Assembly (NCBI RefSeq): GCF_019904295.1
Contig: NZ_CP065359.1
Location: 707,001 to 771,000 of the forward strand
Direction: 5' to 3'
DNA: 64,000 bases
Source of the DNA: Ruegeria sp. SCSIO 43209
GTDB taxonomy: Bacteria; Pseudomonadota; Alphaproteobacteria; Rhodobacterales; Rhodobacteraceae
The notes under the pieces are model-generated. The model made no database searches. It was not told where the DNA came from and saw nothing but the letters and a program-made list of their open reading frames with translations. Positions 18,559-53,337 of the stretch are shown piece by piece. Every line of letters begins with the position of its first letter. The stretch's first letter is position 1. A program made the position numbers and the translations under genes.

Positions 18559-18648
18559 GGGGAGGTGGCAGAGTGGTCGAATGCGGCGGTCTTGAAAACC
18601 GTTGAACGTGAGAGCGTTCCCAGGGTTCGAATCCCTGTCTCCCCGCCA
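18559..18648 (+). tRNA. tRNA-Ser (anticodon UGA)
   Basis: A 90-base class II tRNA. The acceptor arm GGGGAGG pairs with TCTCCCC (one G-U), and the discriminator G and CCA are encoded. There is a long variable arm (about 18612-18620), a T arm CAGGG-TTCGAAT-CCCTG and an anticodon loop CTTGAAA with TGA at 18593-18595. It decodes UCA. The last 25 bases also form the beginning of a 671-bp direct repeat found again at 52667, so this is the integration-type boundary of the accessory region. Confidence 0.97.
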
Positions 18649-19294
18649 CTCATACCTGTCTCACTTCAGTTGTGTTTTTTGACCCGGAATTGTGCCGCAA
18701 TTCCCGCGAGTTGACGCATGCACTTTCAATCAGAGACGGAGCAGATCGTACACTCGGATCACGATTCAGGCCCCAGTCTCAGTGCCGCATTTTGGTGGGA
18801 TCGCTTTGGGCGGGATTTCCCTGATACCCGGAAGTTTACAGGGAAATTTCGCAAAACGGGACTGAGTTCAGTAATTTCACCTGTCAGAACTGAATGTTTT
18901 ACAGGGGGTTAATGTTGCAAATTCCCTAAAAGGTGGAGCAGGGAATTTTCTCGTGCGAACAGGGAATTGTTCCGCCGGATCAGGGAGGGCGAAGTCTGTA
19001 TCAGTGACGCAGGATCTGGAGATGTCAGAAGCCGAACAGGCGTTCCTGTTCGGACCAATCAAGTGGGTGGGTCACGCTGACCAGACGCTTGAGTGTAAGT
19101 TCAGGCGGCTGGGTGCCGTCGAGTATCGCGGCCTGAATCTTCGGTGAGAGAAACGCGAGCTGGGCACGGGCAAGGATGAAAGCGCCGGGGACGCTTTCAC
19201 GCCGCGCAACTTCCATCAGTTGAACTCCGGACTTCAGATCGTGGGTCCAGCCATGGGCGCGGATCAACATGGACCGGAGGCGGGGATCGGGTTG
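18624..19294 (+). repeat. Left copy of 671-bp tRNA-linked direct repeat
   Basis: This stretch matches 52667-53337 over 671 bp with no gaps and, by my reading, seven substitutions, all in the right-hand 305 bp; the first 366 bp are identical. It begins inside the T arm of tRNA-Ser and ends one base before the IS6-type element at 19296. It contains the C-terminal coding end of a serine recombinase and several CAGGGA motifs. Between the tRNA end and the recombinase stop (18649-19024) I see no convincing gene. Confidence 0.95.
18839..18990 (+). repeat. CAGGGA motif series, partly 21-bp phased
   Basis: CAGGG(A/G) occurs at 18839, 18902, 18939, 18960 and 18981. The last three are exactly 21 bp apart, and the first two are 63 bp (three times 21) apart. 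In one frame the phased part reads as a seven-residue repeat beginning EQGI. The series lies just downstream of the recombinase stop and is conserved in the right copy of the long repeat. Its role is unknown; a recombinase or replication-protein binding array is one possibility. Confidence 0.7.
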
Positions 19295-19295
19295 G
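19025..19295 (-). pseudogene. Serine recombinase, C-terminal remnant (left copy)
   Basis: About 90 codons that encode the very C terminus of a large serine recombinase of the alphaproteobacterial type. The marks are RAHGW, an ALAFLSPKIQAAIL-like helix (here AQLAFLSPKIQAAIL), the QPPELTLKRL segment and the closing PLDWSEQERLFGF. The N-terminal catalytic part is missing; the gene is cut at 19296 by the IS6-family element, and the open frame continues into IS sequence only by chance. The right-hand copy is at 53068. It is probably the fossil of the integrase that once acted at this tRNA; that is inference. Confidence 0.8.
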
Positions 19296-20112
19296 GGTCT
19301 TGTCAGAAGAACGTGTCTTGAGCGGGGCAGGGGTGTTGCATAGCTTTTGCCCATGACCAGACCTGCCTCTTTCAAATACTTCAAAACCAGTCCCGATATC
19401 ATCCGTCTTGCGGTAACGCTGTACATCCGCTTCCCGCTCTCGCTTCGGAATGTCGAAGACTTGTTGCACGAGCGAGGCATCGACGTGAGCCACGAAACCG
19501 ACTGCTACTGTTGGAACAGGTTCGGTCCGATGTTTGCCTCTGAGATCCGAAGAAAGCGTGTTCAGCAATTGAGAGCATACTCCAGATGGAAGTGGCACGC
19601 GGACGAGGTTTTCGTGAAGGTGAATGGTAAGCGGCATTATCTTTGGCGGGCTGTTGATCACGAAGACGAGGTGCTGGAAGCCGTTGTCACGAAGCGCCGA
19701 AACAAAGCTGCAGCACTGAAATTCCTCAGGAAAATGATGAAGCGGCACGGTTGCGCCGAATAGATCGTCACAGATCGCTTCGCTTCCTACAAGGCTGCGC
19801 TCAGAGAAATGGGCGCGCTTGAAAAGCAACAGACGGGCGGGTGGCTCAACAACCGTATCGAGAATTCGCACCTGCCGTTTCGACGACGCGAACGCGCGAT
19901 GCAGCGTTTCAGGCGGATGCGAAGTTTGCAGAAATTCGCCTCCGTCCATTCCTCTGTTTACAACCACTTCAACCAGGAAAGATCGCTAGCCAGTCGAGAC
20001 ACCTTCAAGCTGACCCGCGCGGCCGCTCTTAGCGAGTGGCGTCAACTTTGTTCCGGATAGTTTCGCGGTTTCCGCCGCAAACTGAGACTGGTTCGAATTC
20101 GTTTGACAGCAC
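19296..20112 (+). mobile_element. IS6-family insertion sequence, copy A (degenerate)
   Basis: About 817 bp. The left end reads GGTCTTGTCAGAAGAAC and the right end, read inverted, starts GTGCTGTCAAACG; the outer bases of the two are imperfect inverted repeats. One transposase frame runs through the element. The left end interrupts the recombinase remnant. I see no matching 8-bp target duplication across the two flanks, so the element has probably taken part in rearrangement since insertion. Confidence 0.8.
19353..20060 (+). pseudogene. IS6-family transposase with in-frame amber codon
   Basis: The frame encodes a 235-codon DDE transposase of the IS6 group: the opening FKYFKTSPDIIRLAVTLYIRFPLSLRNVEDLLHERGIDVSHET, the first aspartate in WHADEVFVKVNG, the second in VTDRFASY and the glutamate in ENSHLPFRRRERAMQRFR. 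A TAG at 19761 (copy C has an asparagine codon there) splits it between the first and second catalytic aspartates. The other two catalytic residues remain downstream in the same frame. It is probably inactive unless suppressed. Confidence 0.9.
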
Positions 20113-20148
20113 CCTCTAAGATGTCCGCTCTTTTCCCACAGCCAGACT

Positions 20149-21303
20149 TTACTCTAACTTGACCCAAGCCGCATTCCTTGAAGAGCTTTGCACGCATGCG
20201 GCTACAAACTTTACACCATTGAGTCCATCATGGACCGTTGGATAGACAACCGAAGTATCAGGTGAAATCCCGCCTCGGAAAGCTTGGATTGCCTCAGCAG
20301 CCTCTCCATAGATATTGGCGAAACCTTCAAGATATCCCTCTGGATGGCCCGGAGGGACCCTACTCAACCGATTGGCAGCATCGCCCGCTCCAGCTCCATT
20401 TCGGGTGATCAGCCGCTTGGGTTCATTGTATGGCGTGAACCAAAGGTAGTTGGGATCTTCCTGAGACCACTCCAACCCACCTTTCTCACCATAGACGCGC
20501 AAACGAAGTGCGTTTTCATTGCCGGGAGCCACCTGAGAAGACCACAGCATACCCCGCGCTCCGCCTTCGAAGCGAAGCAACACGTGCGCGTTGTCATCGA
20601 CTTTTCGCCCCGGCACAAAGGCCTGCAAGTCCGCCGCCAAGCTTTCCGCCGTCAGCCCGGTTACAAAACAAGCAAGGTTGTAAGCGTGAGTTCCGATGTC
20701 ACCGGTTGATCCACCCGCGCCCGAGCGTTCGGGATCGGTTCGCCACTCAGCCTGTTTGAAATCCTGCTGCTCGGTCAGCCAGTCCTGAGGGTATTCGACC
20801 TGAACCACGCGGATCTTGCCAATATCTCCGTTAGCGACCATTTCACGCGCCTGCCGAACCAACGGATAGCCCGTGTAATTGTGGGTCAAAATGAATAGGG
20901 CATTCGCGCTTTCTGCTGCTTTGACCAGTTTTTTTGCATCGGCAAGAGTCGAGGTGAGTGGCTTGTCACAAATGACATGAATACCGCGCTTCAGGAACTC
21001 ACGCGCGGCTGCATAGTGAACGTGATTTGGCGTGACGATTGAGACCGCCTCGATTCCAGATTTCAACCGAGCTTCCCTGATTGCCATTTGTTTGAAGTCT
21101 TCATAGACCCGTTCGAGCCCCAATGCCTGCCCACTTTCCATGGATTTCTCTGGCGTCGAAGACAAAGCACCGGCGACCAGCTCGAACTTGTCGTCCAGTC
21201 GTGCAGCTATGCGATGAACACCCCCTATGAAGGCGTCGTTTCCGCCGCCAACCATGCCAAGCCGAATGCGTCCTGATGTTTCTTCACTGCGTCCTGTGAC
21301 CAT
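20149..21303 (-). CDS. Gfo/Idh/MocA-family oxidoreductase
   Basis: A 384-residue NAD(P)-dependent sugar or inositol dehydrogenase-like protein: nucleotide-binding GMVGGGNDAFIGGVHR near the N terminus, the EKPL-type motif as CDKPL (lysine conserved), and the catalytic histidine in GSTGDIGTHAYNLACF. It is the last gene of the polyol operon and overlaps the isomerase stop (TGATG with the ATG used here; GTG at 21306 is possible). It probably oxidises a sugar or polyol intermediate; the exact substrate is unknown. Confidence 0.92.
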   Translation of the reverse strand: MVTGRSEETSGRIRLGMVGGGNDAFIGGVHRIAARLDDKFELVAGALSSTPEKSMESGQALGLERVYEDFKQMAIREARLKSGIEAVSIVTPNHVHYAAAREFLKRGIHVICDKPLTSTLADAKKLVKAAESANALFILTHNYTGYPLVRQAREMVANGDIGKIRVVQVEYPQDWLTEQQDFKQAEWRTDPERSGAGGSTGDIGTHAYNLACFVTGLTAESLAADLQAFVPGRKVDDNAHVLLRFEGGARGMLWSSQVAPGNENALRLRVYGEKGGLEWSQEDPNYLWFTPYNEPKRLITRNGAGAGDAANRLSRVPPGHPEGYLEGFANIYGEAAEAIQAFRGGISPDTSVVYPTVHDGLNGVKFVAACVQSSSRNAAWVKLE

Positions 21304-22358
21304 CACTCAATCCCCAGCATTTTCCGATTGGCGGCTTCGTCGGCGCCACTATCAGCGAAATCATCAAAGGCTTTCTCGGTCACACGGATGATGTGATCTG
21401 ACACAAACTGAGCGCCTTCACGCGCGCCATCCTCGGGGTGTTTGAGACAGCATTCCCATTCGACCACAGCCCAACCATCAAAGTCATTCGCCGCCATTTT
21501 TGAGAAGACCGCACCGAAATCCACTTGGCCATCACCAAGCGACCGGAACCGCCCAGCCCGATCAACCCAGCTTTGATACCCGGAATAAACACCTTGCCGC
21601 CCGGTTGGGTTGAACTCGGCATCTTTGACATGGAACATCCGGATCCGATCTTTGTAGATGTCGATATTGTCCAGATAGTCGAGGCATTGCAGCACGTAGT
21701 GCGACGGGTCGTATAGCATGCAGGCCCGTGGGTGATTTCCCGTCCGTTCCAGAAACATCTCGTACGTCACACCATCGTGGAGGTCCTCTCCGGGGTGGAT
21801 TTCGTAGCATACATCAACGCCGCAGTCTTCGGCGTGATCAAGGATTGGCACCCAACGACGCGCAAGCTCATCAAACGCCGTTTCAATCAAGCCGGCGGGG
21901 CGCTGCGGCCAAGGATAGACATAAGGCCATGCCAACGCGCCCGAGAATGTCGCATGTGCAGAAATACCCAAGTTTTTCGAAGCTGATAGCGCTTTCTTGA
22001 CCTGGTCTACTGCCCATTCTTGCCGGGCTTTCGGGTTCCCTCTGACGCTTTCGGCCGCAAAGCCGTCAAATGCACTGTCATAGGCCGGGTGAACGGCCAC
22101 AAGCTGGCCCTGAAGGTGCGTTGAAAGTTCAGTAACTTCGACACCATTGTCCCTGGCTTTTCCTTTGAAGTCATCGCAGTAACCGGTGCTGGACGCGGCC
22201 TGTTCCAGGTCGAACAGCCGGCCGTCCCAACTGGGCACCTGAACGCCTTTGTATCCACAGTCAGCTGCCCATTTAGTGATCGCGTCCCACGAATTGAACG
22301 GCGCTTCGTCCCCCGCAAATTGCGCAAGAAACAAAGCTGGACCTTTGATCGTCTTCAT
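21303..22358 (-). CDS. TIM-barrel sugar isomerase/epimerase
   Basis: A 351-residue AP-endonuclease-2/xylose-isomerase-like TIM-barrel protein (Asp/Glu/His metal ligands in VCYEIHPGEDLHDG, YDPSHYVLQ, MFHVKDAEF and AVVEWEC). Members isomerise or epimerise sugars and keto-sugars with a divalent metal. It sits between the LacI regulator and the dehydrogenase gene, overlapping the latter, which supports a shared pathway. The paired occurrence of this protein with a Gfo/Idh dehydrogenase is common in rhizobia and roseobacters. Confidence 0.9.
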   Translation of the reverse strand: MKTIKGPALFLAQFAGDEAPFNSWDAITKWAADCGYKGVQVPSWDGRLFDLEQAASSTGYCDDFKGKARDNGVEVTELSTHLQGQLVAVHPAYDSAFDGFAAESVRGNPKARQEWAVDQVKKALSASKNLGISAHATFSGALAWPYVYPWPQRPAGLIETAFDELARRWVPILDHAEDCGVDVCYEIHPGEDLHDGVTYEMFLERTGNHPRACMLYDPSHYVLQCLDYLDNIDIYKDRIRMFHVKDAEFNPTGRQGVYSGYQSWVDRAGRFRSLGDGQVDFGAVFSKMAANDFDGWAVVEWECCLKHPEDGAREGAQFVSDHIIRVTEKAFDDFADSGADEAANRKMLGIE

Positions 22359-22385
22359 AAAATCTCCTCCCCAAAACCTGAGCCT

Positions 22386-23444
22386 CTATGGCGGTAAATT
22401 TTCCTTCAGATAGATGTCGATGCGGATACGTTCCTGCGCTTTGTTGAACGGAACCTTATCCGAAGTCGCGCGCAGCAGGCGGACGGCTGAACGTACAATG
22501 TGCCCAGTGTCTTGCGAGATCAGAGCGTCAAATGTACCGAGCGTGAGCGCCTCACGACTGAGCGGTGTAAGCTCATGAGCTATGATCACCAGATCTTCGC
22601 TGAGCTTGTTTTCTGAAAGGAATTGAATCAGGCCTGCGTTACCCGCTGCTGACGAGTATATTCCGACCAGATCTGGATAGGTTTCAAATATTTCGGGCAT
22701 CATCCTGTAAATCAGATCCGGGTCATCTCGGCCCTCGACTGATGCTACGACTTCGAGGTGCGGAAATTCCTCAGCCACAACAAGGTCAAAGCCTTGACGT
22801 CGTTCGAGGTGGTCACGTGCCAAACGGGATCCTGTAAGTACCAAGACCTTGCCGTCACGATGCACAAATCGCCCCATTAGCTGAGCGGCGGTTCGTCCTG
22901 CCGAAACGTTATCAATACCGACAAAGTGGTCTCGTTCAGAACTCGGCAAGTCAGACACCAGGGCAACAACCGGAACGCCTTTGTCCCTGAGCCTTTTAAC
23001 AGCATCCCGGACAGAAGGCGTTTCGGGCCCGAAAACGGCGACTCCGTCTACATCCAAACTGTCTACAGCATCCAGAATGTTGACGATATCTTGGGGCTCA
23101 AACGGAGCAACCTTCTTTATTGCAATGCGAGTCCGTTCGATAAATTGGTCGCGTGATTGTTCTGCGATCTGACTGCTGATTGCCTCCACAAACTCGTTGT
23201 CCGTGTCCGGCAGAACAAAGAGGAAGTTGTAAACTCGGTTACGCGCAAGGTTGGCCGCGGCCGTGTCGCGCACATACCCCAGCTCATCAATCGCCTTTTG
23301 TACTTTCTGTACGGTCACCGCCCGCACGCCGGGGCGTCTGTTCAAGACCCGGTCAACAGTCGCTAGGCTAACACCCGCAACGCGCGCGATGTCATTAACG
23401 GTTGGCTTTTTCACCAATTCTAGTTTTTGTTTTTGGTCTTCCAC
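22386..23444 (-). CDS. LacI-family transcriptional regulator
   Basis: About 352 residues: N-terminal helix-turn-helix and hinge (TVNDIARVAGVSLATVDRVLNRRPGVR...AANLARN) and a periplasmic-binding-protein-like effector domain ending around 340. It would sense the sugar or a pathway intermediate and control the operon. The start is uncertain: GTG 23444 is used here, TTG 23462 overlaps the kinase stop by 11 bp, and other GTG/TTG codons lie just downstream. Candidate operators are the twin palindromes at 30703-30751, before the operon's first gene. Confidence 0.92.
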   Translation of the reverse strand: MEDQKQKLELVKKPTVNDIARVAGVSLATVDRVLNRRPGVRAVTVQKVQKAIDELGYVRDTAAANLARNRVYNFLFVLPDTDNEFVEAISSQIAEQSRDQFIERTRIAIKKVAPFEPQDIVNILDAVDSLDVDGVAVFGPETPSVRDAVKRLRDKGVPVVALVSDLPSSERDHFVGIDNVSAGRTAAQLMGRFVHRDGKVLVLTGSRLARDHLERRQGFDLVVAEEFPHLEVVASVEGRDDPDLIYRMMPEIFETYPDLVGIYSSAAGNAGLIQFLSENKLSEDLVIIAHELTPLSREALTLGTFDALISQDTGHIVRSAVRLLRATSDKVPFNKAQERIRIDIYLKENLPP

Positions 23445-23451
23445 GTGTTCT

Positions 23452-25074
23452 TCAGCCCTCAATCTCCCGCGCTAAGCCTTCAAACAACAAAGCAACAGCC
23501 TCAGCGCCGGGATCGTTATGTCCAACAAGGTTTTCTTCGGGAACATAGGCTGCGCGGCCTGCCTTAGCACGTCGAATATTTGCGGTGTTGTTCGCGCCTT
23601 TGCGGGCAGCCTCGGCCGCGTGCGTCAGACCAGATGGCAGCGCGGCAAGTGCCGGTGCCAGGGCGTCAATCATTGTCCTGTCACCGACCTTGGCACCCCC
23701 AACCTGGCTGACGCGATTCAGTCCTTCGACGAGAGATTTCGGTACCGATGCTCCGCTCGCACAGGCATCTCCAGCTGCGTTGAAGAAGATTGCGAGTATC
23801 ACGCCGGAAGAACCACCCATTGTCTGACTTAACTCATTGCCCAACGCCGGAAACAGTTGTGTCAGATCAGCAAGCGGCATGCGGTCAAGGCTACCTTGCA
23901 ATGCTCTTGCGGCAGTCGCCAATGTGCTTCCTGTATCGCCATCTCCAGATTTCGCGTCCAGTTCGTTGAGGTTCTTCTCCGCGTTGATGAGCAGTTCAGA
24001 CAACCGGGTGATCGTTTCCCTTGTGGTGGGATTGTTCGAAGGAATTGGATCGATAGGGGTCAGGCCATCAGGCAATGGGGCCACTTTGATCGGGCCGATG
24101 GAATCGACCCCGGGCCATGCGGCCAGATCAACGGGTGTTTCAAGGGCTGACAAATCGTCCTGATCCACAGGCAGAATGGAAACCGAAAACCCGTGCATAT
24201 CCAGCGACGTCATCATGGGTGCCGGGCCAATGATATGGTGGGCAAAACCAGTTTCGGACAACGCATGCGTAAGGACAGCCATTTCTAGCGGAGTTGTAGA
24301 ACCCAGGTTGTTGACCAACGCCACGCAATCCCCGGACCCCACCCTTTGCTTCAGCTTCTCCACCACTGTGGACATAGCCGATACAGCATTTGAGAACTCG
24401 ACTTGCTGTACACCGGGCTCGCCATGAATACCCAAGCCAAGCTCTGCTTTCCCGGGGGCGATCCGGTCTTCTTTTGGAGATCCCGGAACGGTACAGGTGT
24501 CCAAGCTCATACCGATGCTGACAACCTTCGCAATGGTGCTTCTTGCAGCATTTGTAACGGTGTCTAGGTCAGCACCGTCTTCAGCAAGCGCTCCGGCGAT
24601 TTTGTGAACGAACAACGTACCCGCCACGCCACGTGGTTGCGGAAGATCGGGCAGGGCGATGTCATCGTCGACAACGACCATCTCTACCTTGCGGCCCAAT
24701 GCACGGGCGCGTTCAGCTGCCAGTCCAAAGTTCAACCGATCACCGGTGTAATTTTTGACGATAAGCAGGCACCCAGCCTCACCCGTGACCGCAAGAATGC
24801 CCGCCAGAACCGCCTCGACTGACGGGGATGCAAACACTTCCCCGCACACTGCGGCTGTCAGCATACCGGCGCCAACAAAACCTGCATGGGCGGGTTCGTG
24901 ACCAGACCCCCCGCCAGAAACCAGGGCGACCTTCGACTTGTCCCAATCCGACCTGTAAACAACCTTGATGTGCGGGTAACCGTCCAACCGGGTCAGTTGC
25001 CCTCCGGAAGACGCCAGAAGACCGTCTATGGCCTCTGTAACCAAAGTTTCTTTTGTGTTGAGGAACTGGGCCAT
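23452..25074 (-). CDS. ATP-type dihydroxyacetone kinase-like protein (DhaK-DhaL fusion)
   Basis: 540 residues. The N-terminal DhaK domain has GGGSGHEPAHAGFVG and the substrate-binding histidine in LGIHGEPG. The C-terminal DhaL domain has the ATP/Mg motif KSGDGDTGSTL. Fused proteins use ATP rather than a PTS phosphodonor. Besides dihydroxyacetone, this family phosphorylates other ketoses such as erythrulose or apulose. Given the TIM-barrel isomerase and dehydrogenase next to it, a ketose made by those enzymes is the more likely substrate (inference). GGAG lies eight bases before the ATG. Confidence 0.93.
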   Translation of the reverse strand: MAQFLNTKETLVTEAIDGLLASSGGQLTRLDGYPHIKVVYRSDWDKSKVALVSGGGSGHEPAHAGFVGAGMLTAAVCGEVFASPSVEAVLAGILAVTGEAGCLLIVKNYTGDRLNFGLAAERARALGRKVEMVVVDDDIALPDLPQPRGVAGTLFVHKIAGALAEDGADLDTVTNAARSTIAKVVSIGMSLDTCTVPGSPKEDRIAPGKAELGLGIHGEPGVQQVEFSNAVSAMSTVVEKLKQRVGSGDCVALVNNLGSTTPLEMAVLTHALSETGFAHHIIGPAPMMTSLDMHGFSVSILPVDQDDLSALETPVDLAAWPGVDSIGPIKVAPLPDGLTPIDPIPSNNPTTRETITRLSELLINAEKNLNELDAKSGDGDTGSTLATAARALQGSLDRMPLADLTQLFPALGNELSQTMGGSSGVILAIFFNAAGDACASGASVPKSLVEGLNRVSQVGGAKVGDRTMIDALAPALAALPSGLTHAAEAARKGANNTANIRRAKAGRAAYVPEENLVGHNDPGAEAVALLFEGLAREIEG

Positions 25075-25085
25075 GCTTTTGCTCC

Positions 25086-26078
25086 TTAATTCACGCGCGC
25101 GCCGGACGCGTCAAAATACAACGGGTTGTGTGGGCGGATTTTTATAAGTTTTCCAGATGGATAATCCTGATGTACATCAATCAAGGTCACAACCGGGTGA
25201 CCGTTCAGGTCCAGGTGTAGCCGCGTTTGATCCCCCAGATGCTCTGCGCGTATTACCCGCGCTTCGCTGCCTTCTCCTTCGATGATGTTTTCCGGGCGAA
25301 GACCTATTTGCGGACCTTTGTGATTGCCTCCGAACAGCTCGGAAGGCAGAATGTTGATCCGCGGCAGTCCCAACCGGCTGGCGACATAAACGCTACCGGG
25401 GTTTTCATAGATGTCCCGGGGTGTTCCGTACTGAACCAGCCTGCCGTTCTCCAAAACGCCGATATGCGTCGCCATTGTCATGGCTTCGACTTGATCATGG
25501 GTCACGTATAGCAAGGTCGATCCCAGATCCGCCTGAATTCTTTTTAATTCGACCCGCAAATCCGCCCGAAGCTTGGCGTCCAAAGAGCTGAGGGGTTCAT
25601 CCATCAGAAATATCTGGGGGTCTCGCACCAGCGCTCGTCCAATTGAAACGCGCTGCATTTCACCGCCAGACAGTTCAGTCGCTTTGTTGTTCAACTTGTG
25701 CGGAATCTGGAGGATGTCCGCAACTTCGTTAACCTTCCTCTTGATCTCATCCTCTGGCGTCTTCAGGATCGGCGACCTCAGAGGAAAAGACAGGTTCTCC
25801 CGCACTGTCATATGCGGGTACAGTGAGTATTGCTGGAAAACCATAGCCACATCGCGCTGGGCTGGCGTTTCTATTCCAACATCCCGTCCAGCAATGCGAA
25901 CGGTTCCAGAATCCAGTTTCTCAAGTCCGGATATCAATCTCAGCGTCGTTGTCTTTCCCGCGCCCGTTGGACCCAATAGCACCACAAAGGCGCCGTTGGG
26001 GATCGTCATTGAGATATCATCCACCGCCTTTAGATTGCCGAATGACTTCGAGATATTCTCTAAAACGACTTCAGCCAT
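25086..26078 (-). CDS. ABC transporter ATP-binding protein (carbohydrate uptake, first of two)
   Basis: 330 residues with Walker A GPTGAGKTT, signature LSGGEMQRVSIGRA, Walker B IFLMDEPLSSLD and a C-terminal TOBE-type regulatory region, as in MalK/UgpC importers. It overlaps the second ATPase gene by 8 bp. Two different ATPase genes plus a small DUF2160 membrane gene is the composition of the GlpSTPQUV glycerol importer described in Rhizobium, so the two probably form a heterodimer. The substrate is not fixed by this. Confidence 0.93.
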   Translation of the reverse strand: MAEVVLENISKSFGNLKAVDDISMTIPNGAFVVLLGPTGAGKTTTLRLISGLEKLDSGTVRIAGRDVGIETPAQRDVAMVFQQYSLYPHMTVRENLSFPLRSPILKTPEDEIKRKVNEVADILQIPHKLNNKATELSGGEMQRVSIGRALVRDPQIFLMDEPLSSLDAKLRADLRVELKRIQADLGSTLLYVTHDQVEAMTMATHIGVLENGRLVQYGTPRDIYENPGSVYVASRLGLPRINILPSELFGGNHKGPQIGLRPENIIEGEGSEARVIRAEHLGDQTRLHLDLNGHPVVTLIDVHQDYPSGKLIKIRPHNPLYFDASGARVN

Positions 26079-27168
26079 TACTTAGTACCTCGTCGTTCAG
26101 AGCGGACCTCAACGCGCGTCCGGTGGCCTTTTCAAACAGTGTTACTGAGGGTGAGCGGAACTCTAACCCCACCGTCTCGCCGGGATTTACGACTTCGCGC
26201 GCATCAATCCGGGCTTTCAGCTCTCCGTTCGGGCTTTGCAGCGTCACGATCTGGGTGGTTCCCAAATATTCTGTCGCCAGAACCTTGGCTCTGTAGGCGC
26301 TCGCATCCGATAGAAAAACATGCTCAGGGCGAACCCCAAAAACTAAGTCACCTTCCGCCCCCTCCATCAGTTTGGGCACGGCTTCGTCATGGCCATTTAG
26401 TCGAACCATTTCCGAGTCAGGCGCGACCTTTCCTTGAAACGGCAGGAAGTTCATGGAAGGGGACCCGATAAAATCTGCAACGAACATTGTGGCTGGTTTG
26501 TCGTAGATTTCCTGAGGTGTGCCGAATTGCTCAATCACAGCGTTGTTCATCACTACGATCTTGTCGCCCATTTGCATGGCTTCCAACTGGTCGTGTGTCA
26601 CGTAAACAGTGGTTGCGCCCATACGGTCATGAAGCGCGCGTAACTCTTCGGCCATGTGTTCTCGAAACTCGGCATCTAAGGCACCCAACGGTTCGTCCAT
26701 CATGAATGCCTTGGGTTCGCGAACGATCGCGCGGCCCAGTGCCACGCGCTGCCGGTCGCCACCTGACAGTCCACCTACCGGGCTATCGAGGATGTCGTTG
26801 ATCCCCAGAATTCCCGCGACTTCTTCTACTTTGGCTTTTACAGCAGCACGCGGCATGCCCTGCGATATCAGGGGGTAGCTGATATTTTTGCGCACGTTCA
26901 TGTGGGGATACAGCGCAAACATCTGGAACACGAATGCAATGTCTCGCTCTGATGGGGGTCGCTGGCTGATTTCTTCGCCGTCGAGATAGATCTCACCCGA
27001 TGTTGGAAGTTCCAAGCCTGCGATCATCCGCAGTGTCGTCGTTTTGCCGCAGCCCGATGGACCAAGCAGCATGAAGAATTCACCATCTTCAATCGTGAAC
27101 GAGCTTTCCCGCACAGCGGTGAAATCGCCGAACATCTTCTTTACGTTTTTGACAACGATCTGGGCCAT
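26071..27168 (-). CDS. ABC transporter ATP-binding protein (carbohydrate uptake, second of two)
   Basis: 365 residues with Walker A GPSGCGKTT, signature LSGGDRQRVALGRA (unusual D in place of Q), Walker B AFMMDEPLGALD and a C-terminal TOBE-type domain. Start 27168 (MAQIVVKNVKK) was chosen because the longer frame runs into the permease genes. It lies two bases after the stop of the DUF2160 gene. It probably pairs with the ATPase encoded next to it and drives the two permeases upstream. Confidence 0.92.
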   Translation of the reverse strand: MAQIVVKNVKKMFGDFTAVRESSFTIEDGEFFMLLGPSGCGKTTTLRMIAGLELPTSGEIYLDGEEISQRPPSERDIAFVFQMFALYPHMNVRKNISYPLISQGMPRAAVKAKVEEVAGILGINDILDSPVGGLSGGDRQRVALGRAIVREPKAFMMDEPLGALDAEFREHMAEELRALHDRMGATTVYVTHDQLEAMQMGDKIVVMNNAVIEQFGTPQEIYDKPATMFVADFIGSPSMNFLPFQGKVAPDSEMVRLNGHDEAVPKLMEGAEGDLVFGVRPEHVFLSDASAYRAKVLATEYLGTTQIVTLQSPNGELKARIDAREVVNPGETVGLEFRSPSVTLFEKATGRALRSALNDEVLSNG

Positions 27169-27170
27169 TT

Positions 27171-30720: not shown

Positions 30721-30731
30721 GTCCAGAAATA

Positions 30732-38787: not shown

Positions 38788-38799
38788 AAGGGCAAACCC

Positions 38800-43550: not shown

Positions 43551-43578
43551 GTCGGTCTGACGACAAAGGAACACAATC

Positions 43579-44022: not shown

Positions 44023-44038
44023 AAGCTGCCTGTGTGCA

Positions 44039-44073: not shown

Positions 44074-44111
44074 ATATCTGAGTGACTCCGCGAAATACTG
44101 ATTGGCTGGCG

Positions 44112-44603: not shown

Positions 44604-44619
44604 AGGGTGAACTCCCGGA

Positions 44620-45519: not shown

Positions 45520-45615
45520 GCATTTATGCATAACACTTCTGCGAATTATGGCAATTTAGTAAATGTGTGTATGGATGTATGGGATGCGACAACAAACTTG
45601 AAAGAGAGTAATAAA

Positions 45616-46263
45616 ATGGCTGCTTTGTCCAAAGATGCCGCGTTCTGGAGCAGAATCTCGCGAAAGTATGCGGCGGACCCAATCCGGAACATGGAAGGGT
45701 ATCTGAACACACTCGAACGTACGAAGTCGCACCTAAAAGCAGAAGACAGTGTACTGGAAATCGGTTGCGGGACGGGTTCAACCGCGCTGTTGCTTGCACC
45801 GCATGTCAACCATATCACCGCCTCGGATCTCGCTCCGGGCATGATCGAGATTGCCAACGAGAAGCGTGCTAAAGAAGGATTGGAGAATGTCACTTTCAAG
45901 GTGGCCGAAGTTCTCGAGCACGATCCTGTTGAAGGTGGTTACGATGCGGTTCTGGCGCATAACCTGCTTCATCTCCTGCCTGATTTGGATCAAGCGCTAG
46001 AGCATATTGCCAAATTGACAAAATCCGGTGGGGTTTTCATATCCAAAACGGTGTGTGCGCCTGAGAATGGTGGGTTCAAGTATGCGATGATCAGTCGTCT
46101 CGCGATTCCTATCATGCAGTTTTTTGGGAAAGCCCCGTTTGTGAATTTCGTTTCTATGTCGATGCTTGATAGGAAAATTGAGCGTGCAGGCTTTGAAATC
46201 CTGTATACTTCCGATCAAGCCTCGATGCTCCAGAGTCGTTATGTTGTCGCGCAAAAACCTTGA
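45616..46263 (+). CDS. Class I SAM-dependent methyltransferase
   Basis: 215 residues with the SAM-binding motif VLEIGCGTGSTALLLAPHV and post-motifs ITASDLAPGMIEIANEK and YDAVLAHNLLHLLPD. Start 45616 (MAALSKDAAFWSRISRKYAADP) is the family-like N terminus. The frame is open further upstream but overlaps the LysR gene and has no match. The substrate is unknown; small-molecule methylation is the usual role of this group. Confidence 0.9.
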   Translation: MAALSKDAAFWSRISRKYAADPIRNMEGYLNTLERTKSHLKAEDSVLEIGCGTGSTALLLAPHVNHITASDLAPGMIEIANEKRAKEGLENVTFKVAEVLEHDPVEGGYDAVLAHNLLHLLPDLDQALEHIAKLTKSGGVFISKTVCAPENGGFKYAMISRLAIPIMQFFGKAPFVNFVSMSMLDRKIERAGFEILYTSDQASMLQSRYVVAQKP

Positions 46264-46758: not shown

Positions 46759-47229
46759 ACGAGTGAGTGCTTTTTCATGATTCTGTGCGAAATTGTTGGG
46801 TTCGACGGTGAGTCTGTCGGGCGACCGGATCGAAGGCCCTGCGTTGGATCAGGCAAAGCTCCCACCGCGGGGTGTTATCATTGGATTGTCGGACGCCGCG
46901 ATTGCCTGCAGGCACCTTTTCTCTAAGCGGTCTGGCTTATACCCCAGACCAATTCGAGAAACGGCGACATTTGGATGATGCTGAATGGTCTATCACAGAG
47001 TGAAATGACGTTACGCGTACAATGGTTTTCATGGCGCTGGTCGCGAAAAGCTTTACGACATTGCCGACAGAAACCGATCCGAAAAGGATCAGGGATTGTA
47101 CGCATGATCGACGCGTGCTGGTGTTCCTCGACATCGCAAAAAGCGGACGTCGCCGTTGATGCAGCATGGAAACCTGTGGCAATTGCAGCAAGGCTGCCGC
47201 ATTCCTAGCAGACTTACACCAGTAAGGTT
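46759..47229. other. Gap between cyclase fragment and SDR gene
   Basis: About 470 bp. No gene recognised on either strand; composition is mixed and may include further decayed sequence. Confidence 0.3.
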
Positions 47230-48087
47230 TTAGCTTAGGAACTGCTCAATCACGGCTGCTTGTTGCTTTTTTCCATCCGGGTCTGCTTCGGTTTTCAGGC
47301 GAGTAAACGCCTCACCCCAGTTTGAAGTGCGAACGCGGATCGGCGGGTCAGAGGCTTCAACCACGCCCATGACAACTGATGCCACTTGTTCCGAAGTTTG
47401 ATAGATATCGCTGCCATCCATTCGCGCCTGAGCGCCGCCGATATACTTCTGGAGAATAGGTAGATACTCATCCTCAAGCATCCCGCCCGTGGCCTCGACA
47501 TGTTTAAGCACATTGGTCGCAAACTCGGATTGAATACCGCCCGGTTCAACTGTCGAGAAATGGATACCGAAATTGGGCGTGACATAGCTGGCCAGAGCCT
47601 CAGTGTATCCCTCAACGGCGAACTTTGCGGCGCAGTAGATCTCGTTGAACGGCTGACCCACAAGGCCGCCTACGGATGAGATTGTGATGACATGGCCCGA
47701 GCGCGCTGCGCGCATGTGTGGCATCACCGCTTTTGTGCAGCGCACGACACCCATGAAATTCACGTCCATGACCCAGGCGACGTCTTCTTCGCTGGCTTGT
47801 TCGGTTGTGCGAACAAATCCAGCACCCGCATTGTTGATCAGCTTATCGATCCGCCCCTCGTTCGCGATGATCTGATCGACTGCGGCGTTTACGCTGGCGC
47901 TGTTCTGCACGTCCAGCTCAAGCACGTTGAAATTGACGCCAGCGTCAGAGGCGGCCGCATCCAAGATGCCACGCTTGGCGAGGTTTCGCATAGTAGCGTA
48001 GACAGTATGGCCCGCTTGGGCTGCTTGTACGGCGATTTGAACACCAAGGCCGGATGACGTGCCGGTGATCAGAATGACTTTGGGCAT
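47230..48087 (-). CDS. SDR-family oxidoreductase
   Basis: 285 residues, with the NAD(P) motif ITGTSSGLGVQIAV near the N terminus and the catalytic Ser...YxxxK as SSVGGLVGQPFNEIYCAAK. A classical short-chain dehydrogenase. Start 48087 (MPKVILITGTSSGLG) is used; the frame to 48126 lacks family support. It is in the same direction as the TetR gene, 63 bp apart, and probably controlled by it. Confidence 0.9.
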   Translation of the reverse strand: MPKVILITGTSSGLGVQIAVQAAQAGHTVYATMRNLAKRGILDAAASDAGVNFNVLELDVQNSASVNAAVDQIIANEGRIDKLINNAGAGFVRTTEQASEEDVAWVMDVNFMGVVRCTKAVMPHMRAARSGHVITISSVGGLVGQPFNEIYCAAKFAVEGYTEALASYVTPNFGIHFSTVEPGGIQSEFATNVLKHVEATGGMLEDEYLPILQKYIGGAQARMDGSDIYQTSEQVASVVMGVVEASDPPIRVRTSNWGEAFTRLKTEADPDGKKQQAAVIEQFLS

Positions 48088-48150
48088 AATGGAAGCTCCG
48101 AATATCAAATGAATTGCTTGCGGCAACGATCCGATGTGTCGGGGCGAAGG

Positions 48151-48714
48151 TCAACAGCGGGACTTTAAAACGCCCAAAGCCTCATCGAAGGTATTCACAT
48201 TCTCTTCTGCGCGCGCGGTCAGATGCGCGCCTTCCAAAAGGGCCAGTACCGCGCGGGACTCCGAGGTAGGATCGGTGATGCCGGTGATTGATTTGTCTTC
48301 TTGGCCAAGCTTCAGGATCTCTTCGATTTGGGTAACCATCATGGCGCGGAATTTTCTGATCTTTTGGATCACGTCATCCGAAAGGCTTTCACGGCTGCTG
48401 ATGAGCGACACGCAGAGACACAAGGTTTTCCCGTCATTGAGTGCATGCCGGTAGAGGTCGATCAGGGCCAGCAATTGCTCGGCCCCGGTTTTGTGTTCTA
48501 ACCGGATGCGGTTGCACTCTGCTTGCAGGGTCTCATGATAGCGACCCATGAGTGCCGCCGACAGCGCTGCTTTGGTCGGGAAATGATAGTGGATTGACGC
48601 CTTGCGAATACCCACCGCCTCTGCCAGATCGGCATAGCTGAACCCGTCAAACCCCCTCGCGCGCGCAGCGTGTTCGGCAACATCCAAAAGGGCAGTCTTG
48701 GTATCACTCGTCAT
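48151..48714 (-). CDS. TetR-family transcriptional regulator
   Basis: 187 residues, with an N-terminal helix-turn-helix (GFDGFSYADLAEAVGIRKASIHYHFPTKAALSAALMGRY) and a helical ligand-binding region. It lies six bases after the stop of the amine oxidase gene and before the SDR gene, so it is likely an autoregulated member of this five- to six-gene minus-strand operon (51798 to 47230). Confidence 0.9.
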   Translation of the reverse strand: MTSDTKTALLDVAEHAARARGFDGFSYADLAEAVGIRKASIHYHFPTKAALSAALMGRYHETLQAECNRIRLEHKTGAEQLLALIDLYRHALNDGKTLCLCVSLISSRESLSDDVIQKIRKFRAMMVTQIEEILKLGQEDKSITGITDPTSESRAVLALLEGAHLTARAEENVNTFDEALGVLKSRC

Positions 48715-48720
48715 ACGTGC

Positions 48721-49782
48721 TCAAACCTTTTCCGTCATGATCAGGGCCAGCGCGTTTTCCGCAGACTCCAGGGCGCCTTCGATATAGCCCCCGAACTGTG
48801 GTGCAACTTCGGTCCCGCCAAAGATTAGTCGGCCATCCCACAGACGGGTCATCGCATGGGGCAGCCCGTATTGCGGATGAGCGTATAACGGCTGTTGATC
48901 CGCTTCGATAGAGGTGAACGGGTCAAAGGCCCAGTCTTTAACATAGAGTGTCTTTGGCTCCGCAGCTGCGGCGCCGAACAGCCTGGACAGTTGCTCTTTG
49001 AGCAACTGCCGCAGCCGTTCTTCGTTGCTGCGGGTGCGCGGGGGTAAGCCGATAAAGCCGAACAACGCGTAAGGTCCGCCCTCGGCAGGGGAGGCGTCGT
49101 GTATTTCCACCATCGGCCCCCTGCGGCTCATCGCGTCACCGGACAGCCCGACCGTGCGCCAGAACGGGGTATCATAGACAGCGATGGCTTTGGCCTGTCC
49201 GGCCATCCAAGTCGCGATCCCGGTCATTGCCGCTAAAGCTTCATCTGGTAAAGCAGGTGAGAACGCGATCTTGCTCGCCACGCGAGGAGGGAGGGCCAGT
49301 ACGACTTCCTGAGCATGGATGACTTGCCCAGTTTGAGCGGTCGTGGTGATCCCAGACGCAGACTTCTCTAACCCGACGATTGGCGCGGATAAGATGAGCC
49401 GCTTCGACGGTATCTCAGCGGCAAGCGCATCAGTGAGGGCGCCCAGACCACCTTTCAAGCGATAAGATCCTTGCATCGAGGCAAACCCGCGATCGCGCTC
49501 GACCTGGCCGATCTCGTTTTCAAAGCTGAGAGCGCCTGTTGAATATTGCTCGAACCACTCCAGTCCGAGCCGCTTTATTAACGCTGCAATACGCGGCTGC
49601 CCGGGCCAGAACCAGGCGGGACCCATGTCGAAGTACCCACCCTCCAGCCTTTCCGTCAAGATACGTCCGCCCGGACGACCCCGCGCTTCGACCAGCAGGT
49701 AGTCATGGTTTCGTGCCTGTAGCTGTCGCGCAAGGCAGAGGCCAGAAAGGCCTGCGCCAATGATCAGAGTTTGCGTCTGCAT
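48721..49782 (-). CDS. FAD-dependent amine oxidase-like protein
   Basis: 353 residues, with N-terminal FAD-binding GAGLSGLCLARQLQARNHDYLLVEARGRPGGRI, the RxGGR motif of the amine oxidase family, and a C-terminal region with HAMTRLWDGRLIFGGTEVAPQFGGYIEGAL, which holds the second FAD contact. Members oxidise amines, amino acids or lipid-like polyenes. The substrate is unknown. It lies 3 bp after the SDR stop in one operon. Confidence 0.9.
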   Translation of the reverse strand: MQTQTLIIGAGLSGLCLARQLQARNHDYLLVEARGRPGGRILTERLEGGYFDMGPAWFWPGQPRIAALIKRLGLEWFEQYSTGALSFENEIGQVERDRGFASMQGSYRLKGGLGALTDALAAEIPSKRLILSAPIVGLEKSASGITTTAQTGQVIHAQEVVLALPPRVASKIAFSPALPDEALAAMTGIATWMAGQAKAIAVYDTPFWRTVGLSGDAMSRRGPMVEIHDASPAEGGPYALFGFIGLPPRTRSNEERLRQLLKEQLSRLFGAAAAEPKTLYVKDWAFDPFTSIEADQQPLYAHPQYGLPHAMTRLWDGRLIFGGTEVAPQFGGYIEGALESAENALALIMTEKV

Positions 49783-49785
49783 CGC

Positions 49786-50469
49786 TCAGAACCCCTCAGA
49801 TGCCGGGCGCAGGTCCAGCTCATGGGTCCAGGTGGATTGCGGTTGATGGGCTAACTGCCAGTAGGCCTCGGCAATCTCGTCCGGTTTCATCATCTTCGAC
49901 GGATCCAGCGAGTGCAAATCCCGCGAGCGGGGTGTATCGATGATCCCGTCCAAAACGACGTGCGAGATATGTACGCCAGCCGGTTGATATTCACGTGCCA
50001 GCGATTGTGTCAGCCCGCGCAGGGCGAACTTAGCCGACGCAAAAGCGGAAAACCGTGGGCCGCCGCGCAGCGACGCTGTGGCCCCCGAAACGATCAGCGC
50101 GCCACCACCGCCGCGCACCATCGGTTGCAGAACACATTGCCCCAGCAGGACCAAAGATTGCACCATTGATGTCCACGTTCTCTGATAGTCTTCCAATGCG
50201 GTTTCGGGGAATGGCGCGATCACCAGCTCAGCCGTATTGTGTACCACGAACTTCGGCGGGCCATGCGTAGCGATCAATTCAGAAATCACTGGCGCAACCG
50301 CACTCGGATCGGACAGATCGACCTGATGAAACGGCGCGATCGTTTCCTGCGGCTGCGTCCGTCCAAGACCAATGGCCGTCATGCCACCTGCCTGAAACCG
50401 CGCGAGAAGGGACTGGCCAAGGCCAGCCCCCGCACCGGCGACAATCGCCAGAGGTTTCTTGCTACTCAT
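49786..50469 (-). CDS. Atypical SDR protein with Phe in place of catalytic Tyr
   Basis: 227 residues, with NAD(P) motif VAGAGAGLGQSLLARF. The active-site region SGATASLRGGPRFSAFASAKFALRG keeps Ser and Lys, but the YxxxK tyrosine is Phe (FASAK). This makes standard SDR proton transfer unlikely. The protein may be a binding or structural partner, or use another residue. It overlaps no neighbour but is 3-4 bp from both, in the operon. Confidence 0.85.
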   Translation of the reverse strand: MSSKKPLAIVAGAGAGLGQSLLARFQAGGMTAIGLGRTQPQETIAPFHQVDLSDPSAVAPVISELIATHGPPKFVVHNTAELVIAPFPETALEDYQRTWTSMVQSLVLLGQCVLQPMVRGGGGALIVSGATASLRGGPRFSAFASAKFALRGLTQSLAREYQPAGVHISHVVLDGIIDTPRSRDLHSLDPSKMMKPDEIAEAYWQLAHQPQSTWTHELDLRPASEGF

Positions 50470-50472
50470 GAA

Positions 50473-51141
50473 TTAAACCACCGGTGGCTGTGCAAAGGGC
50501 AGGTGGCCAGTCTTCATCCAGACCTTCGCCCCGTCTGGGCCAGCCATAGCCGACAGCGCTTCACCCTCAGGCAGGCGTAGCCAGTCGTTCTTTTTCAGCA
50601 CGTCACCGCCTGAGGTCAGCGATCCGCCAATCATTAACAGCTCGATACCACCCGGCGCATTCGAAGTAATCTCGGTGCCTGCATCAACATGGCTGTAAGT
50701 GACAACCTCGCGGTCATCCTTGTGCAGCGTCGCAGTGGCGACCCCGTTCACGGGTGCGGCCAGTTCGTCGGCCATGGTTTTGCGGAACTGATTGCGATCA
50801 TCCATGTCGAATTGCCAGAGTTTGACGAAGATCGTGCAGCCGGGTTCTGAGCCGGGCGTGTGCTCGGTCGTTGGGGGATTGCGCACATAGGTGCCTTCCG
50901 GGAAATCGCCATGCTCATCCTGAAAGACGCCGTCCAGAACGATGAACTCTTCACCGCCTGTATGGGTGTGGGCCGAAAACTTGCTGCCTGGTGCATAGCG
51001 CACAATGGTGGTGGCGCGGGCGACTTCGCCACCAATTCGGTCCAGCATGCGCCGGTCCACACCCTTCATGGGCGAGGCCTGCCACTCAAGCTGATCAGAG
51101 TGAACAACGACACGCGAAGAGAAGTCCGAGTTGAGTTCCAT
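50473..51141 (-). CDS. Double-cupin protein, ChrR-like
   Basis: 222 residues with a cupin core: [33 protein letters not shown] (metal-binding His and Glu) and a second cupin-like half with weaker ligands ([18 protein letters not shown]). This resembles the ChrR anti-sigma C-terminal cupin, but no zinc anti-sigma N-terminal domain is present. It may bind a metal or a reactive small molecule. It lies in the operon before the atypical SDR. Confidence 0.85.
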
Positions 51142-51177
51142 GGGAGGGGTCCTTTCAACTTAAATGGCAGTTCTCGC

Positions 51178-51798
51178 TTAGCCGGCGATAGATGGACGGG
51201 CCGCCATCTTAGCACGCCAAGCTTGCAGGTTGGTCAGGGTTTCAGGAATTTCAACTTTGGCAAAATCGGCGAACGCCAATCCTGCAAAGGCGGTGATATC
51301 AGCCACCGAGAATGTGTCTCCAGCCAAGTATTCGTTTTCGGCCAATACCGCATCCAGATAGGCCATGGTGTTTCCGGCAACCTCTTTCTGTTTGTTGCCC
51401 CATTCGGCGCATTGATAGGTTTCCAGGTCCGGGCCGAGGCCAGGTGTGGCATGGTGGAAGTAGGTGCCGACCGCATTCAACAGACCGTTTTCCGCGCGCA
51501 GGTTCATCATCGAGATTCGGGCGCGCTCTTGCGCAGTCACGCCGGTCAATGATGGGCCATCGAAGGTTGCGTCGATATATTCAGTGATCGCGTTGCATTG
51601 AGCGATGTGCGATCCATCTTCCAGTTCCAAACAAGGCACCGCGGCATCGGGGTTTTTGGCTTTGAACTCAGGCGTACGATGTTCGCCGCCCATCACATCC
51701 ACAGGGATGAATTCAACTTTGTCTGACGCGCCTTTTTCAGCCAGCGCAATACGAACACGGGCAGGGTTCGGGAACCCTTCGACATCATATATCTTCAT
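51178..51798 (-). CDS. Glutathione S-transferase
   Basis: 206 residues: N-terminal thioredoxin-like domain (MKIYDVEGFPNPARVRIALAEKGA...AVPCLELEDGSHIAQCNAITEYI) with cis-proline and the QCNAI glutathione site, and a C-terminal helical domain. It is the first gene of the minus-strand operon that ends with the SDR at 47230. The ATG at 51798 follows a weak GGAGGTAC-like sequence (GAGGTACTCAG). Confidence 0.92.
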   Translation of the reverse strand: MKIYDVEGFPNPARVRIALAEKGASDKVEFIPVDVMGGEHRTPEFKAKNPDAAVPCLELEDGSHIAQCNAITEYIDATFDGPSLTGVTAQERARISMMNLRAENGLLNAVGTYFHHATPGLGPDLETYQCAEWGNKQKEVAGNTMAYLDAVLAENEYLAGDTFSVADITAFAGLAFADFAKVEIPETLTNLQAWRAKMAARPSIAG

Positions 51799-51874
51799 CT
51801 GAGTACCTCCGTCGGGGTTTGAGATTCATGATGTCTACCTATCAATAGGTAGGCATGATTGCAACCCTTTTTTA

Positions 51875-52675
51875 GGTCTTGTCAGAAGAACTTTGCTTGA
51901 GCGGGGCGGGGTGGTTGCGTAGCTTTTGCCCATGACCGGACCTGCATCCTTCAAGTACTTCAAAACTAGTTCTGAGATCATCCGCTTGACTGTGATGCTG
52001 AACATCCGTTTCCCGCTCTCGCTTCGGTATGTTGAAAATCTGCTGCACGAACGAGGCATCGACGTGAGCCACGAAACTGTCCACTATTGGTGGAACAGGT
52101 TTGGCCCGATGTTTGCCTCTGAGATCCGAAGAAAGCGGGTGCAACAACTGCGCGCATTCTCGAAATGGAAGTGGCATGTGGATGAGGTTTTGTGAAGGTT
52201 AATGGCAAGAAGCATTACCTCTGGCGGGCCGCAGATCATGAGAGCAAGGTGCTGGGAGCCGTTGTCACCAAACGCCGAAACAAAGCTGCAGCGCTGAAAT
52301 TCCTCAAGACATTGATGAAGCGACACGGTAAAGCGGAAAACGTTGTCACAGATCGCTTCGCCTCATACAGAACCGCTTTCAGAGAGCTTGGTGCTGACAA
52401 AAAACAGAAAACGGGCAGGTGGCTCAACAACTGCGTCGAGAATTCGCACCTGCCTTTCCGACGACGCGAACGCGCCATGCAACGTTTCAGGCGGATGCGA
52501 AGTTTGCAGAAGCTCGCCGCCGTCAACTCCTCTGTCTACAACCACTTCAACGAGAAAGAGCGCTTGCCAGCCGAAACAGCTTCAAGCTGATACTCACCGC
52601 CGCTCTCGCCGAGTGGCGGGGTCTTTGTGACGAATGAAGGACAGCTATACTGGCCTAGCTGAGACTGGTTCGAAT
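51875..52675 (+). mobile_element. IS6-family insertion sequence, copy C, fused to tRNA 3' end
   Basis: About 801 bp. The left end is GGTCTTGTCAGAAGAAC, the same as copy A. The right part has the internal CTGAGACTGGTTCGAAT seen in copies A and B. Instead of going on to the IS terminus, it then continues into tRNA-Ser 3' sequence (CCCTGTCTCC). The junction coincides with nine shared bases GGTTCGAAT. Copy C is in the same orientation as A and B. Confidence 0.82.
51932..52637 (+). pseudogene. IS6-family transposase with two frameshifts (copy C)
   Basis: The frame opens as FKYFKTSSEIIRLTVMLNIRFPLSLRYVENLLHERGIDVSHET. It is broken by one missing base near 52190 (GAGGTTTTGTGAAG against GAGGTTTTCGTGAAG in copy A), which falls right after the first aspartate. 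Reading resumes in the next frame with VTDRFASY and ENSHLPFRRRERAMQRFR, and a second deletion near 52560 shifts the tail (SRNSFKLILTAALAEWRGLCDE). Both lesions make it a dead copy. Confidence 0.88.
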
Positions 52676-53337
52676 CCCTGTCTCCCCGCCACTCATACCT
52701 GTCTCACTTCAGTTGTGTTTTTTGACCCGGAATTGTGCCGCAATTCCCGCGAGTTGACGCATGCACTTTCAATCAGAGACGGAGCAGATCGTACACTCGG
52801 ATCACGATTCAGGCCCCAGTCTCAGTGCCGCATTTTGGTGGGATCGCTTTGGGCGGGATTTCCCTGATACCCGGAAGTTTACAGGGAAATTTCGCAAAAC
52901 GGGACTGAGTTCAGTAATTTCACCTGTCAGAACTGAATGTTTTACAGGGGGTTAATGTTGCAAATTCCCTAAAAGGTGGAGCAGGGAATTTTCTCGTGCG
53001 AACAGGGAATTGTTCCGCCGGATCAGGGAGGGTGAAGTCTGTATCAGTGACGCAGGATCTGGAGATGTCAGAAGCCGAACAGGCGTTCCTGTTCGGACCA
53101 ATCAAGTGGGTGGGTCACGCTGACCAGACGCTTGAGTGTAAGTTCGGGCGGCTGGGTGCCGTTGAGAAGCGCGGCCTGAATCTTCAGTGAGAGAAACGCG
53201 AGCTGAGCACGGGCAAGGATGAAAGCGCCGGGGACGCTTTCACGCCGCGCAACTTCCATCAGTTGAACTCCGGACTTCAGATCGTGGGTCCAGCCATGGG
53301 CGCGGATCAACATGGACCGGAGGCGGGGATCGGGTTG
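52667..53337 (+). repeat. Right copy of 671-bp tRNA-linked direct repeat
   Basis: Direct repeat of 18624-19294 (offset 34,043). Its first 25 bases reproduce the tRNA-Ser 3' end including CCA, but there is no tRNA 5' part here. The copy goes on through the CAGGGA series and into the recombinase stub, ending where the left copy meets IS copy A. The sequence beyond 53337 is not that of the IS, so the right copy probably shows the original state of the recombinase gene. Confidence 0.95.

Follow-up and report, generated by a model that had tools for sequence, protein, structure and literature searches.

The 34-kb segment that lies between two copies of a 671-bp direct repeat at a tRNA-Ser gene of Ruegeria sp. 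SCSIO 43209 is probably a decayed tandem of tRNA-Ser islands of a serine-integrase family, reshuffled by insertion sequences (IS) of the IS6 family and with its end copies converted. It is part of a stretch of 64,000 nucleotides (contig NZ_CP065359.1, positions 707,001 to 771,000 of the forward strand), hereafter the window, in whose coordinates all positions are given. The segment contains two integrase stumps and separate cargo modules bracketed by IS6 copies, and it belongs to a variable zone of 136 kb; it is therefore not one intact island. The features on which this rests are the following.

18559..18648, + strand: complete tRNA-Ser(UGA), the likely integration target (ARAGORN; Rfam RF00005)
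18624..19294, + strand: left 671-bp module copy, with tRNA 3' end, spacer, and integrase 3' end; the module also occurs in relatives
19028..19300, − strand: C-terminal stump, cut by IS6, of a large serine recombinase, with 91 of the 589 query residues; 89% to the protein of genome G022
19296..20113, + strand: left IS6-family element; transposase frame with an in-frame TAG at 19761-19763
32263..32933, + strand: middle IS6-family element, 5'-truncated and lacking the final base
51875..52675, + strand: right IS6-family element, truncated, its last bases replaced by tRNA sequence
52667..52675, + strand: GGTTCGAAT, common to the IS6 3' end and the tRNA T-arm, a hybrid junction
52667..53337, + strand: right 671-bp module copy, from self-comparison
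53071..53340, − strand: second integrase stump, also C-terminal, with 90 of the 589 query residues; 86% to the protein of G022
53338..53474, − strand: IS5-family transposase remnant that abuts the right copy

Comparison of the window with itself aligned 18624-19294 to 52667-53337 over 671 bp, ungapped, with seven mismatches (98.96% identity) and an offset of 34,043 bp, where a previous sequence-only reading had placed the copies. That reading had also placed a complete tRNA-Ser on the left and only its 3' part on the right, and the tRNA intact at 18559-18648 (anticodon TGA) is indeed the sole one detected in the window by ARAGORN. Of the seven mismatches, six fall inside 61 bp (19103-19163), a clustering with P ~0.0002 under random placement. 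A search of the whole genome with the repeat returned four places: both copies and two 25-nt matches, which are the 3' ends of tRNA-Ser(GGA) and tRNA-Ser(CGA). The left copy abuts the first IS6 element and the right copy the third, with whose alignment it overlaps by exactly 9 bp. Integrase homology was sought to the right of 53337; the IS5 remnant was found there instead, 73-78% identical over 125-137 bases to plasmid genes annotated as IS5 family transposase (seven of the eight matches listed, the best 8 of 89 records).

The repeat can be identified as the end, on the integrase side, of a family of tRNA-Ser islands, from the integrase frame that it enters and from the adjacency to tRNA-Ser in the surveyed loci. 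It is made of the tRNA-Ser(UGA) 3' end, a spacer of about 380 bp, and the last 90 or so codons of the gene for a large serine recombinase. The far part of this module forms, in relatives, the 3' end of a frame that is open for 589 or more amino acids and reads toward the tRNA; in one relative (locus L008) the frame has the Resolvase and Recombinase domains (PF00239 and PF07508). The sequence-only reading had judged the repeat too long for an attachment (att) core and had proposed that homologous recombination may mobilise the segment. The two copies are able to recombine; their length has another cause, since they are integrase-end modules and hold more than an att core. Both stumps in the window span only query residues 499-589, outside the two domains, and the window has no intact integrase gene of this family such as a tRNA-targeted island would carry. 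A search of the same genome for this integrase yielded no intact copy, only the two stumps and one distant match (31%). The relative's integrase scores best on the NCBIfam model CcrB (NF047343), which likens it to the CcrA/B/C recombinases of the staphylococcal cassette chromosome mec (SCCmec); its 160 bits are, however, far under the equivalog cut-off of 900. The target of SCCmec is rlmH, whereas that of the Ruegeria type is tRNA-Ser.

A search of 148 relatives found the module in many genomes of Ruegeria, the genus of the window, and in 26 genomes, this one included, it stands whole or in part directly after a complete tRNA-Ser(UGA). We then surveyed the integrase at the best 80 of 302 named loci, nearly all from Rhodobacterales. 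Its neighbour is a tRNA-Ser at 53 of the 80 (anticodons UGA, GGA, GCU, and CGA), a tRNA-Arg at two, an IS6-type 3' end at five, and none of these at 20. The tRNA 3' end and the integrase end are some 380 nt apart (326-445). The five loci that read IS6-type 3' end|GCCA come from Ruegeria (twice), Oceanibium, Tropicimonas, and a metagenome-assembled genome, and four of them have an IS6 transposase upstream; one is the copy of genome G039, which is also counted among the 16 module copies considered below. Many of the 20 remaining loci read ..CC|GCCA at the expected place, several with tRNA 3' fragments.

The opposite, outer end of these islands often carries an IS6-family terminus. Sixteen module copies without a complete tRNA beside them were read in 15 other genomes, two of them in G019. 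Twelve of the 16, in 11 genomes (G039, G051, G035, G011, G050, G019 twice, G041, G036, G024, G044, and G026), begin with the final bases of the tRNA, CC|GCCA, flush behind an IS6-family 3' end. The junction reads CACC|GCCA, the IS6 3' terminus and then the att core. The clean layout is seen in G045 (Ruegeria sp. HKCCSA071): tRNA-Ser, module, an unbroken match to the 589-aa integrase, 43.7 kb, and IS6|GCCA. The right junction of the window lacks this form, the commonest in relatives.

A pattern search retrieved 36 distinct IS6-end|GCCA junctions, 34 with more IS6 sequence upstream and two (L078 and L111) with the terminal 30 nt of IS6 only; the sequence behind GCCA is highly variable across them. 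Because the search pattern included the junction itself, the count was redone without the flank in the search. Among the matches listed (54 genomes), GCCA follows 11 of 113 IS6 3' ends, for 0.44 expected, and the next most frequent tetramer follows five. The 113 ends are the listed whole-IS6 matches that reach the IS 3' end plus 30 loci returned; their flanks were read by script (103 of 105) or taken from earlier readings (10), and two of them (L276 and L277) have six to seven mismatches in the terminus and are maybe not true ends. When other tRNA classes were considered as partners, the same 113 listed ends gave ACCA 0, CCCA 0, and TCCA 2. The IS6 3' ends are also oriented: all 34 found downstream of tRNA-Ser at up to 200 kb, in 20 genomes, point away from the tRNA, and a single one lies upstream, in a 21st genome. 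This count takes pattern-search ends on the tRNA's own contig, and excludes the rows of G019 and G047, none of which is on the tRNA contig.

From these sequences we infer, tentatively and with somewhat less than even confidence, that the IS6 3' terminus may act as an attachment half-site for the large serine recombinase that targets tRNA-Ser. The points in favour are that the terminus belongs to the IS itself, that GCCA follows 11 of the 113 listed ends, that the IS copies involved form no clade, and that several genera show the junction. The terminus is conserved on plasmid IS6 copies of Mesorhizobium, Sulfitobacter, and Pseudorhodobacter, and in Novosphingobium only in a looser form; because plasmid copies of other genera carry it, derivation of the terminus from the island rather than from the IS is unlikely. 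A tree of 42 IS6 copies, 17 linked to the right attachment site (attR) and 25 dispersed, has 14 label changes for a shuffled mean of 13.6, i.e., no clustering. A single ancient IS-ended lineage is thus unsupported by the tree, in which attR-linked and dispersed copies are mixed; one old lineage, with IS bodies that recombination replaced later, is a possible alternative. The IS6 transposase may also treat the tRNA end as an IS end.

The junction data include some further observations. Another type of sequence after the same tRNA-Ser, TAAAA..GGCGAA..TCGACCAC or one near it, occurs in G002, G010, G029, and G040 (L091, L095, L096, and L101), and a similar sequence, TATTAAAGGCAAAATCGACCACC, stands behind the IS6|GCCA junction of G020 (L068). 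In G017, downstream of tRNA-Ser(GGA) (L119, 2050-2146), 67 bp separate two IS6 3' termini, an arrangement suggestive of repeated use of the end. A compact layout occurs in G039 (L134, C27 561500-571000), with two IS6 copies between tRNA-Ser(GGA) and an IS6|GCCA border about 6 kb off; no match to this serine integrase was found in it.

The three IS6-family copies of the segment, absent from the sequence-only reading, are all on the + strand and 81-85% identical to one another. The intact copy of a relative matches NF033587 with 198 bits (cut-off 125) as well as PF13610, and the left and middle proteins of the window are 91% and 81% identical to it. The terminal inverted repeats are present (GGTCTTGTCAG ... 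CTGACAGCACC). Directly oriented IS6 copies thus bracket the cargo, as in a pseudo-compound transposon. Three more copies, also on the + strand and in the same variable zone, lie to the right of the window (C1:773494-774310, 823152-823967, and 835597-836003 of the same genome).

The cargo between these copies was annotated with Pfam.

20114..31835: module 1, polyol-type uptake and catabolism genes and a MOSC protein
33187..36810, − strand: autotransporter (PF03797)
37154..46263: mixed genes
47160..51874, − strand: module 3, with SDR, TetR, amine oxidase, SDR, ChrR-like cupin, and GST genes

Module 1 encodes Gfo/Idh/MocA, a TIM-barrel isomerase, LacI, a Dak kinase, two ABC ATPases, two permeases, and a binding protein. 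It is collinear and 87-89% identical in six genomes (G001, G002, G012, G020, G021, and G030), where the homology starts at 20112-20148, at or just past the 3' end of the left IS6 (20113), and stops at 31804-31835. Module 3 is 93-94% identical in G038 and G027 (in G027 from 47480), and this homology stops at 51872-51874, flush at the 5' end of the right IS6. The cargo of the window therefore consists of at least two modules, with differing nearest relatives and edges at IS6 ends, that were acquired separately. The gene of the polyol binding protein is present in 24 of the 54 genomes at scattered locations, 93-99% identical except for one at 68%, and the amine oxidase gene in 16 of the 54. The polyol block and the TetR-amine oxidase-ChrR block, separated in the window, are adjacent in G042 and G044; in G010 and G029 one of the two lies less than 4 kb from tRNA-Ser. 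By their distribution, the cargo blocks look like habitual residents of the tRNA-Ser hotspot that have been rearranged in the window. The families of the mixed region are LysR, GST, DUF1348, a PNPOx/NAD-binding reductase, AraC, NmrA, DUF4345, an AAA kinase, LysR, and a methyltransferase. Within the autotransporter gene, 35632-36004 holds two overlapping copies at an offset of about 174 bp (199 bp, 74%). Just right of the repeat, a run of surface-polysaccharide-type genes occupies 53829-64000 (glycosyltransferase TIGR04440, NTP transferase, epimerase, dTDP sugar isomerase, C-methyltransferase, and DegT aminotransferase).

The segment makes up just the opening quarter of a variable zone of 136 kb. 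The zone ends at recJ, a gene present in all 54 genomes (87-95% identical outside the window's own genome) and here located about 100 kb beyond the right repeat. The distance from tRNA-Ser to recJ ranges from 9.0 to 421.6 kb (median 77.1) in the 25 genomes in which one contig carries both in the orientation expected, and is 136.5 kb in the genome of the window; four further genomes have both on one contig in another arrangement. Occupancy of the site is thus variable among relatives, as for tRNA-targeted islands, and this bears out the proposal of the sequence-only reading that the tRNA-Ser gene is an integration hotspot with accessory cargo. The distances also imply that near-empty sites exist. 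In G040, a gene about 350 bp beyond the IS6|GCCA border is 98% identical to the gene that follows tRNA-Ser in G009; the roughly 350 bp between the border and the common gene are not homologous in their alignment.

These data suggest the following history. An island family would insert at the 3' end of tRNA-Ser via its large serine recombinase. Insertion of a second island at the same tRNA would produce a tandem by accretion: tRNA, module, integrase, cargo, and outer end, followed by module, integrase, and cargo. The outer end would often be an IS6 3' terminus joined to the att core (CACC|GCCA), in this genus and in some other bacteria. After accretion, IS6 activity, through deletions from IS ends and the uptake of IS-flanked units, would have truncated each integrase and put the cargo together anew from modules flanked by IS6 copies of one strand. 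Recombination would next have homogenised the right module, the older one, with the left, up to the 9-bp GGTTCGAAT common to the IS6 3' end and the tRNA. The end copies do look recently homogenised: module-copy pairs within eight other genomes are 83-92.5% identical (60-650 bp shared; the pair of G024 gave no alignment), for 98.9% in the window. Both repeat alleles occur among relatives at 19103 and at 19163, and the clustered mismatches suggest a patch that escaped conversion. To excise now, the segment would depend on RecA recombination or on an integrase supplied in trans; a circle of 34,043 bp through RecA recombination is possible.

Several observations weigh against this history. The two copies stop at the equivalent base (19294 and 53337), the left at an IS6 end and the right at the IS5 remnant, and conversion alone leaves these equal right ends unexplained. 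Four of the 16 module copies depart from the outer-end layout: in G005 merely a 13-nt IS6-like end precedes GCCA, in G017 (C15) a short tRNA 3' fragment does, G046 has neither an IS6 end nor a tRNA fragment at the module start, and in G012 an IS6 end abuts inner module position 354. The 8-bp target duplication of IS6 reaches seven of eight matching bases in none of the 40 rows compared, either at att (16 rows, one with a misplaced 5' end) or elsewhere (24 rows), and single transposition steps are therefore not readable. For plain IS6 insertion at the att core, this test gave no discrimination, since neither class of copies shows a duplication. Finally, the species of the window has no close strain among the relatives compared. 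The sequence-only reading had proposed that relatives be compared for an empty tRNA-Ser site; near-empty ones occur (9.0 kb to recJ), and an exact empty site for this segment was not found among them.

The rival explanation that survives best, although we consider it unlikely, takes the right copy for a recent templated duplication of the left rather than for the end of an old tandem. A broken IS6 3' end would prime at the 9-bp GGTTCGAAT in the tRNA, the module would be copied until run-off at the left IS6 terminus, and end-joining to the IS5 remnant would follow. One event would thereby cover the 9-bp junction, the near identity, and the common end point. However, it leaves unexplained why six of the seven differences fall within 61 bp, and the presence of both alleles at 19103 and 19163 among relatives points to an older, different copy. 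Extra module copies at this place are, moreover, common in the genus without such an event.

We regard as very improbable the proposal of the sequence-only reading that the 34 kb are one tRNA-targeted island, integrated as a circle and still excisable as one of 34,043 bp. The complete tRNA on the left, the 3' fragment on the right, and a hotspot with near-empty sites would fit it, and G017 likewise has a module copy behind a short tRNA 3' fragment. Against it stand the truncated integrases, no intact one of this family being found in the genome, the cargo modules that differ in their nearest relatives and have edges at IS6 ends, the IS6/tRNA hybrid at the right junction, and recJ, which lies some 100 kb further on. 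More improbable still is a plain IS6 pseudo-compound transposon that lies beside tRNA-Ser by chance, with the tRNA and the integrase stumps as bystanders. Three IS6 copies in one orientation do bracket the cargo, but such a transposon explains neither the duplicated tRNA end with its integrase stump nor the GCCA junctions and the 34 of 34 ends oriented relative to tRNA-Ser, and both the layout of G045, with its unbroken integrase, and the integrase-tRNA association speak against it. Near-identical 671-bp copies could mislead an assembler into collapsing or falsely duplicating a repeat, yet such an artefact is scarcely credible given seven differences, unique flanks of both copies on a 3.65-Mb contig, and the 15 other genomes that have extra module copies, in 11 of which the layout is IS6|GCCA.

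As judged from sequence, a family of serine-recombinase islands at tRNA-Ser with a recurrent IS6 outer end, to which we assign the segment as a decayed tandem, is an unusual build for tRNA islands. Passages of the Islander paper (PMC4383910) state that serine recombinases were not known, in 2014, to target tRNA genes, and describe an island finder restricted to tyrosine integrases. The islands in those passages resemble ours in their insertion at tRNA 3' ends, the complete tRNA with a displaced 3' fragment, and the tandem arrays; they differ in the recombinase, here a large serine recombinase, and in the outer att arm, here often an IS6 terminus. The translocatable units and pseudo-compound transposons of IS26/IS6, as outlined in excerpts of PMC7986276 and PMC7885326, likewise have directly oriented IS6 copies around the cargo, whereas here an IS6 end is recurrently joined exactly to the tRNA att core and the counted copies near tRNA-Ser all face one way. 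A serine recombinase with a predicted tRNA-Met target is described in an alphaproteobacterium for the Paracoccus phage vB_PamS_Pami6 (PMC6536676); in contrast to our islands, this is a phage, with another tRNA and with no IS end reported in the excerpt. A literature search with partial coverage (titles and the starts of abstracts) brought up, among the matches listed, no Ruegeria islands of this type and no IS end as attachment arm.

Among the main routes by which bacteria gain genes are islands at tRNA genes. A finder limited to tyrosine integrases would miss a large serine recombinase family at tRNA-Ser across many genera of Rhodobacterales. If the IS6 terminus is a half-site, any correctly oriented IS6 downstream of the integrase could become a new island's outer end. 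The insertion of an IS would then set the boundaries, the integrase would carry whatever intervenes, and the whole would be a mobile element of two enzymes. IS6 ends that act as attachment arms would explain how a site-specific integrase picks up arbitrary cargo, and would yield serine integrases that have a conserved landing site. For the window itself, the reading shifts from one mobile island of 34 kb to a remodelled front part of the 136-kb variable zone.

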